Notes under the pieces: generated by a model | Told to the model about the DNA's origin: nothing | What the model saw: only the letters and a program-made list of their open reading frames with translations | Databases searched by the model: none | Program-made: the position numbers and the translations under genes | Virus record (IMG/VR): IMGVR_UViG_3300006805_000074 | Span: 1-36,669 of that record | Direction: 5' to 3' (one strand) | From: a virus | Length of the DNA stretch: 36,669 nt | Part shown: positions 30,684 to 33,237 of the stretch, piece after piece | Layout: each line of letters begins with the position of its first letter | How positions within the stretch are numbered: the stretch's first letter is position 1

Positions 30684-31982
30684 ATGAGTGAATTAACGGC
30701 AACAGATGTGGCTATCGAGCAAATAAAGAAGGCTGGGTTTTCGCATATTAAGGTAGAGCTAGAGGCAGACCTCGGTAGGGACGGAGAGCGTGAGTGTAGC
30801 GATTGTGATGATGGCTATAGCGATTGTGATGAGTGTAATGGGGACGGTGTTCTCATGGCAGAGCGTCCAAACGGTACAGAGGTAGAAGTAGAATGTGATG
30901 AATGTTACGGCGAAGGTCGTGTAGAATGTGGCTATTGTGATGGCAGGGGTTACGACGGTGGTTACTACGACGAAGATTACTGTGAAACATTTATGCGTGA
31001 TTGGGTAGGCTCAGATGTACTGAGTAGGCTCACCTATGGTAACTTTTACGAAGATGGTAGTGTAGACAGTGAGTTTACGTTTACTGTACCTATCGAACAC
31101 TACAAAGATATTGTAGTCTGGATTGACAGCTTTAAGGCACTATCCGAGGACATTGGTAACGGATACAATACAGGTGGAGCAGGTATGCACATCTCTCTGA
31201 TACCAAAAGAGAGCAACGGTAACTATCCAAATAGACACCGTATGCCAGATGACAAGATAGAAAACTTTGCAGAACAGATGAGCAAGCTGTTACCAGCCAT
31301 GCTATTCTTCTCAAGCAATAATGAGGTAAGTCGTGGACTGAGTTATAGGACACCACAAGTGTCTCACGACGAGAAGTACAGCGCAATCTATACTCACGAC
31401 GGTACTTGTATTGAATACAGGGCTTTCGAGACCTGTTACGACGAACCAGAACGTATCTATGAACATATAGAGGTAGTAGCAAAGACCCTACAGTTCTATG
31501 TAGACCCTACTAAAACAGTAGAGACTATGGGCTTTAGATTTAACTTCTCAGATTCTTATAGCGGTCAAGAGGGGAGACAGCTTAGTCGATTCTATGACAC
31601 ACCAGAGAAAATTGCGGTATTGCGCAAACAGCTTAAATATATCAAGCCTGATGGCAAGAGCAATGCAGAGCTTATGGCACAACGTGGCGTATCTGGTATA
31701 ACAGACTTGCGTAAAAAGATAAGCAAGAGACGTAACCAATTGCGTAAGCAATACTTTAAGAGTATGGCGATGATAAAGATACAAGAAAAAACACCACTGA
31801 CGGAACGGCAAATGATTCACCTTGAAGAACTCAAACAATACTCTCGTCGCTACAGTGAGAATTTGGACGAGCAACAGATGATTGACCAAGCAAAGGGTAT
31901 CAATCGCTTGCCAGACTTAGAAACATATATTAAAAACAACCTAGGCTCAAACGAGGGTCGTGGTTATACGGCATATTGCTAG
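30684..31982 (+). CDS. Glutamine synthetase-like amidoligase with internal zinc-finger domain
   Basis: 432 residues. It carries the marks of the phage/bacterial amidoligase family (GS fold, ATP-dependent amide bond formation): VELEADL (24-30), DGSVDSE (124-130), GGAGMHIS (164-171) and IEYRAFET (243-250), which supply the metal- and ATP-binding acids, His and Arg. Between the first and second motifs lies a DnaJ-like Cys domain with four CxxC pairs (C38/41, C48/51, C71/74, C82/85) and Gly-rich CxxCxGxG units. The rest (about 310-430) is basic and helical. The class II amidotransferase follows 16 bases later, so the two probably work as ammonia or amine supplier and ligase. The substrate is unknown. 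Confidence 0.8.
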   Translation: MSELTATDVAIEQIKKAGFSHIKVELEADLGRDGERECSDCDDGYSDCDECNGDGVLMAERPNGTEVEVECDECYGEGRVECGYCDGRGYDGGYYDEDYCETFMRDWVGSDVLSRLTYGNFYEDGSVDSEFTFTVPIEHYKDIVVWIDSFKALSEDIGNGYNTGGAGMHISLIPKESNGNYPNRHRMPDDKIENFAEQMSKLLPAMLFFSSNNEVSRGLSYRTPQVSHDEKYSAIYTHDGTCIEYRAFETCYDEPERIYEHIEVVAKTLQFYVDPTKTVETMGFRFNFSDSYSGQEGRQLSRFYDTPEKIAVLRKQLKYIKPDGKSNAELMAQRGVSGITDLRKKISKRRNQLRKQYFKSMAMIKIQEKTPLTERQMIHLEELKQYSRRYSENLDEQQMIDQAKGINRLPDLETYIKNNLGSNEGRGYTAYC

Positions 31983-31986
31983 AAAC

Positions 31987-32001
31987 GGAGAATGACTTAT
32001 T
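31987..32001 (+). promoter_or_regulatory. Ribosome site that decides an ATT start
   Basis: GGAG at 31987-31990 lies eight bases before ATT (31999-32001), which is directly followed by TGC for the catalytic Cys. An in-frame TGA at 31993-31995 rules out any earlier start. The ATG at 31992 in another frame is too close to GGAG and opens a frame of only 14 codons. Confidence 0.75.
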
Positions 32002-33237
32002 TGCGGAATTGTATATGTAAACAGCTACAGGGGTAAATCTGTAAGCAAAATGGTTAAACGTGCTTATAAAGCACAACGTAACCGAGGTCATGAGGGGTTT
32101 GGTTTTTACACACCAGAGAATAACCGATTGACACACAACACTGAGGAACGCAACATTATGCGGTTACTCAAGCGAGAACGACAGAGTGAGATTCTTTTTC
32201 ACCACCGTTTTCCAACTAGTACAGAGAATGTACGGAACGCTTGTCACCCGTTCAGCACTAAAAACCGATGGGACAATAACTATGTTATGGTTCACAACGG
32301 CGTTGTATGGAATGACTTCGAAGTTGCAAAGAAGCAGGTAGAGGACGGTATCCGTTATGTATCTTACCAGCCAAATGGCAGCTACAACGACAGTGAAGTA
32401 CTGATGTACGACATTGCACGATACCTAGAGGGTGAAGTAGACCAACTATCAGTAGAGGGTAGTATCGCCTTTATCATGGTACAGCGTAACAAAAAGGGCG
32501 AAAAAGTTGCACTATACTTTGGTCGCAACAGTGGCTCACCACTCAAGCTAGAGCGAAGTCCAGATGGGTTTGCACTAACATCAGAAGGTGTATCACCAGA
32601 TATCAAAGTTAATACCTTGTACAAGTTTGACTACAAGAGTCAGGAGTTTTCAGAGTCACCTCTGGACATCCACTACTACACCTACAGCCAAAACTCAAGT
32701 GGTAAAGCTGGGAACTATTCAGCAGGCAACTACAACTATGGCGACTACCGTGGTTATGGCAACGGTTACAAGTGGAACGGCAGAAACTACGAAGATGCAG
32801 AGCTTTCAGAAGAAGCTCGTGAAATTGCGGATTACAATGCAGGTTATGGTGCTAATTATACGACACCAATGGTTGAAGATACGCTAGACCGTTACGGCAA
32901 CTATGGTCGTTATGGGCTAACAGACGAGACACAAGAGCAAGCAGAGAGTATCATCATTGATGAGATTATCGAAGGACTAAAGTACGATACCTACCAAGGT
33001 AGTACACGAGATATGCTGGAGTTCGGCGAGATACTACTTGATGAGTTACAGACTAAGTATATGTTTTTGGAGAACAAAATCCGAGAGGACGGCGATCTAT
33101 CTGGGCAAGATATTGATGACTATGAGGAACTTGATAATAAGATTCTACTACTCACTAAAGCGCTTAATCAGATAACCGAGAAACAGCTACGACTTGCGCT
33201 ACAAGCAACTAACGTAAGGTACACACCAGACCACTAA
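31999..33237 (+). CDS. Class II glutamine amidotransferase (Ntn hydrolase), ATT start
   Basis: With the ATT start the protein has 412 residues and begins M-C-G-I-V-Y, the N-terminal nucleophile Cys2 of the glutaminase family. Other motifs: RNRGHEGFG (27-35), HHRFPTST (68-75), HNG (99-101, oxyanion hole) and, later, NSGSPLKL with LTSEG. It releases ammonia from glutamine. The C-terminal half holds a Tyr/Gly/Asn-rich low-complexity linker (about 230-260) and charged helices, not a synthetase domain, so the ammonia probably goes to a partner, likely the amidoligase just upstream. The first ATG (32050) would delete the catalytic Cys. Confidence 0.85.
   Translation: MCGIVYVNSYRGKSVSKMVKRAYKAQRNRGHEGFGFYTPENNRLTHNTEERNIMRLLKRERQSEILFHHRFPTSTENVRNACHPFSTKNRWDNNYVMVHNGVVWNDFEVAKKQVEDGIRYVSYQPNGSYNDSEVLMYDIARYLEGEVDQLSVEGSIAFIMVQRNKKGEKVALYFGRNSGSPLKLERSPDGFALTSEGVSPDIKVNTLYKFDYKSQEFSESPLDIHYYTYSQNSSGKAGNYSAGNYNYGDYRGYGNGYKWNGRNYEDAELSEEAREIADYNAGYGANYTTPMVEDTLDRYGNYGRYGLTDETQEQAESIIIDEIIEGLKYDTYQGSTRDMLEFGEILLDELQTKYMFLENKIREDGDLSGQDIDDYEELDNKILLLTKALNQITEKQLRLALQATNVRYTPDH

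Follow-up and report, generated by a model that had tools for sequence, protein, structure and literature searches.

The window analysed here, the whole of a 36,669-base record of an uncultured phage, carries phage portal and capsid genes and, at 31999-33237 on the plus strand (as are all window features given below), a gene of 412 codons plus stop for a predicted class II glutamine amidotransferase. Bases 31987-32010 read GGAG AATGACTT ATT TGC GGA ATT: a Shine-Dalgarno (SD) motif, GGAG (31987-31990), stands 8 nt before an ATT codon (31999-32001), and the codon after it, TGC (32002-32004), would specify the catalytic cysteine as residue 2. The frame containing this TGC is closed upstream by a TGA (31993-31995) and is open through 33237; the reading order at the 5' end being TGA-CTT-ATT-TGC-GGA-ATT, CTT and ATT are the sole sense codons between the in-frame stop and the cysteine codon, and the start is restricted to one of the two. 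The first-pass annotation, which had proposed that the ATT is the start needed to keep the catalytic cysteine, was accurate on these bases: the ATT directly before TGC GGA ATT, the GGAG 8 nt upstream and the in-frame TGA two codons earlier are all there. The first ATG, GTG or TTG of the frame in the mechanical ORF listing is the ATG at 32050-32052, where a start would lose the cysteine; within the scope of that listing, the accompanying statement that a normal gene caller would choose this codon stands. Another ATG, at 31992-31994, lies in a different frame and 1 nt away from the SD. What the gene offers is an SD placed for the ATT and no usable canonical start.

Profile and fold searches alike place the protein among the class II glutaminases, the class for which a cysteine right after the initiator methionine had been claimed to be necessary. 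Its match to Pfam GATase_6 is above the cut-off (1.7e-8), a profile built from nine homologues recovers chains of GlmS and PurF, and profile comparison puts residue 2 of the frame opposite Cys1 in the glutaminase domain of E. coli GlmS (1xff). The predicted model has a mean pLDDT of 67, higher over much of the first 220 residues, and Foldseek retrieves GlmS, PurF and EgtC with it (best E 7.6e-10). Across 12 homologues Cys2-Gly3 and the motifs FHHR, HNG and NDSE are invariant. We conclude from these comparisons that the protein is a predicted class II (Ntn) glutamine amidotransferase with its catalytic core intact, and that a dead enzyme is a very unlikely explanation. With the ATT as start the cysteine is residue 2, and its exposure as the N-terminal residue by removal of the methionine is predicted.

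The gene immediately upstream (30684-31982) encodes a protein with a DnaJ/BSD2-like cysteine-rich stretch in its N-terminal part and a predicted glutamine-synthetase-like fold. Foldseek matches its model to glutamine synthetases with E 8.5e-6 and probability 1.00, at TM-scores of merely 0.3-0.4, and more weakly to YbdK; a fold of the glutamine synthetase/YbdK type, as modelled here, is that of COOH-NH2 amidoligases. The window protein gave no match to Amidoligase_2 (PF12224), and we therefore call the gene amidoligase-like. One locus, L002, was discarded as a homologue of it, the similarity being confined to the cysteine-rich stretch. Twenty-four phage relatives were gathered via the portal protein; five of them carry the amidotransferase gene, and the upstream gene adjoins it in the same five. 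A gamma-glutamyl cyclotransferase gene is present in some relatives. Amidoligase, glutamine amidotransferase and ATP-grasp genes are found together in LUZ24-like phages (PMC3890496), and amidoligase, class II amidotransferase and ATP-grasp genes lie close together in Alcaligenes phage vB_Af_QDWS535. The window differs from both in that its ligase-like protein is recognised by fold alone, and from the Alcaligenes phage also in the start, since the amidotransferase of the latter begins ATG TGT GGC.

In the five portal-found relatives with the amidotransferase, ATT precedes TGC/TGT-GGA in every case, with GGAG seven nt upstream. Protein-profile scans, the last two of which used patterns without the start position, extended the set to 32 viral loci, and a single genome scan added one contig from a Poribacteria bin. 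The codon before Cys-Gly in these 33 sequences is ATG in 26, ATT in 6 and ATC in 1; the window included, there are 7 ATT, 1 ATC and 26 ATG, i.e. 8 genes with an Ile codon at the start. L108-L111, four of the sequences with ATT, are closely related to one another. Each of the eight Ile-start genes has an in-frame stop at most 13 codons upstream, with no ATG, GTG or TTG in between, and an SD of at least 4 bases. A tblastn search of the phage collection with the window protein returned one relative below E 1e-4, the Alcaligenes phage. A match to GlmS in an Enterococcus-labelled record proved a false lead; in that record (L004, OR846611.1, named Enterococcus phage Efs 1-1-1) the GlmS gene stands beside ABC-transporter-like genes and the sequence resembles bacterial chromosome. 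One pattern match, L094, was a chance match.

As several relatives keep an Ile-codon start beside the same catalytic cysteine, each with an SD upstream, the comparison argues that the ATT at 31999 is very probably the real start and not a sequencing error. A sequencing or assembly error might be suspected because a single base converts ATT to ATG, or because one extra T in the TTT run would make ATG 31992 the start. But the Ile codon is there in seven relatives (ATT in six, ATC in one) that come from other metagenome records and whose proteins share about 30-50% identity with that of the window. None of the other Ile-start relatives has an ATG corresponding to ATG 31992, and this ATG is separated from the SD by 1 nt. 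Since ATT recurs in separate assemblies, a single-base error is unneeded, and we hold it to be most improbable. A start at ATG 32050, giving a shortened protein without the catalytic cysteine, is if anything harder still to credit: its one merit is that it is the first canonical start of the frame, and the homologues all begin Met/Ile-Cys-Gly, none of them at the position of this ATG, while the codons that precede it are conserved as protein and the cysteine is invariant. The alignment of homologues at this site, suggested by the first-pass annotation as a check, thus came out in favour of the ATT.

A short propeptide is present in some enzymes of class II, B. subtilis PurF among them, and one could imagine a start further upstream, or a frameshift or fusion, with a propeptide cleaved to free the cysteine. 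In the window there is room for two residues at most before the cysteine, those of CTT and ATT; among the relatives the codons preceding the Ile codon vary and stops are near, and the SD spacing suits the Ile codon itself. Such a propeptide appears to us highly unlikely.

The codons that follow the ATT evolve as protein-coding sequence from the AUU onward. Pairwise comparison of four close relatives, in which no canonical start is found within the first 55 codons, gave 2-19 synonymous versus 0-4 amino-acid-changing codon differences over codons 2-59, with dN/dS of 0-0.06 and dS of 0.05-0.86, i.e. strong purifying selection. Because change in this segment is nearly purely synonymous, the segment must be translated, and no codon other than the Ile codon is positioned by the SD to start it.

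In a tree of 32 aligned sequences all Ile starts fall inside one 14-member clade (support 100/98), where they are interspersed with six ATG members; the start state changed at least five times in this clade, and the tree rejects a grouping of the Ile starts into a clade of their own. One lineage has thus repeatedly gained or lost such starts, a pattern that is compatible with the tuning of expression or with a tolerant host, the data favouring neither. An SD of at least 4 bases is found in 8/8 Ile-start genes and 6/26 ATG genes, but inside the 14-member clade SD strength does not differ between the two, so that the overall contrast may reflect lineage only. RNA folding around the start revealed no unusual structure.

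A second candidate AUU gene lies at 1147-1743 of the window, behind the SD AAGGA (1137-1141). It encodes a lytic-transglycosylase-like protein with an N-terminal signal-type segment, and its family comprises the window copy and those at L070, L074, L076, L080 and L098-L102. In each of the ten sequences (eight distinct ones) ATT stands shortly 3' of an SD of AAGG or GGAGG type. Canonical in-frame codons occur upstream in two members; several carry, eight codons 5' of the ATT, an ATA (in L099 an ATG) with no visible SD of its own, and in L100 a stop codon rules out that position. On this comparison the ATT is a probable start of the transglycosylase-like gene, less certain than that of the amidotransferase. 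Matches to Staphylococcus-type transglycosylases are informative on the family of the gene, and were set aside as an indication of the host. A separate observation concerns five members (L074, L076, L099, L101 and L102), in which the gene is closed at [GT]TTAAAAG..TAA, 89 codons in, and resumes in the -1 frame; the 89-codon frames are at L074:17827-18093 and L076:3614-3880, and begin at 2001 in L099 and L101 and at 659 in L102. The window copy is one uninterrupted frame. A programmed -1 frameshift is possible in these genes.

How far do Ile-codon starts extend to other genes of these phages? Canonical start codons stand where expected in 350 of the 406 frames that could be tested across 16 related records. 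Among 36 flagged frames, the amidotransferases and one structural gene have an Ile codon behind an SD where their homologues start; the others were judged by context to represent internal alignments or leader DNA. Most frames that seemingly extend upstream of their starts were likewise dismissed, being judged antisense frames or conserved leader DNA. The structural-type gene (L065, record G025, at about 27435) has ATA behind AAGGAG where its relatives have ATG, which points either to an AUA start or to a mistake in this one sequence. These numbers bear on whether AUU is a real start at which Ile codons merely drift, in a host initiating well at AUU, AUC and AUA, without any regulation. The repeated switching between Ile codon and ATG in the clade and the ATA of the G025 gene would fit such drift; the prevalence of canonical starts, with few other frames having an SD-preceded Ile codon, and the retention of ATT in 10/10 sequences of the second family speak against it. 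We regard unregulated drift as a real possibility, although not as the leading one.

Taking the observed position, conservation, coding constraint and intact catalytic core of the amidotransferase as a basis, we consider it highly probable that the enzyme is translated from AUU 31999; this presumably weak start would serve to keep the product low or late, likely under control of IF3. The well-spaced SD would set the initiator fMet-tRNA on the AUU, and methionine aminopeptidase would then remove the methionine, leaving the catalytic cysteine free as N-terminus. Initiation at the Ile codon would be weak, and the amidotransferase made in low amount or late, as proposed by analogy with infC and pcnB; a weak start probably limits the lysis-type, transglycosylase-like product in the same way. 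Fidelity control by host IF3, which represses non-canonical starts (PMC5472188), likely acts on both. As to the usefulness of a low output, we may only speculate: perhaps it holds the glutaminase below the product of the upstream amidoligase-like gene, a proportion analogous to that of SigR to RsrA, which is kept by the weak start of sigR (PMC5472188). Three observations count against this explanation: the switches of start state, at least five, which would also fit a merely tolerant host; an SD that, within the clade, is not stronger before Ile codons than before ATG; and an unremarkable RNA structure. A bolder version is that the glutaminase and the lysis-type transglycosylase form a small AUU/AUC-marked gene set, co-switched during infection by the initiation state of the host, through the level of IF3 or a phage factor loosening start selection; this we think rather unlikely.

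Few genes with Ile-codon starts have been characterised (PMC5472188). The closest parallels are E. coli infC, which encodes IF3 and has a weak, output-limiting AUU start repressed by IF3 (PMC5472188), and pcnB, with a weak AUU start (cited in PMC13009471). Both are cellular genes, infC being self-regulated, whereas here we deal with phage enzyme genes, known from sequence, in which the start is fixed by the catalytic cysteine. In S. aureus, where AUU and AUA starts are used and reporters gave about 1/10 of the AUG output in poor medium, cvfC1 (AUU), ccpN and infC (both AUA) have non-canonical starts behind a strong SD that are conserved in staphylococci, much as in the present case (PMC13009471), and the GTC start of Streptomyces sigR sets the proportions of two proteins (PMC5472188). 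These are bacterial regulators with proof from reporters or ribosome profiling, while the phage genes were read from their bases.

Gene finders restricted to ATG, GTG and TTG miss or truncate genes of this kind. In the amidotransferase the position of the true start is marked by the catalytic cysteine itself, so that class II amidotransferases could be used for a survey of rare start codons in viruses and bacteria. Rare starts of such kind are already known; unusual here are their recurrence within a single clade of phages and a second gene that probably shares the feature, and it is the clustering in one clade, together with this probable second AUU gene, that makes phage control via weak starts testable.
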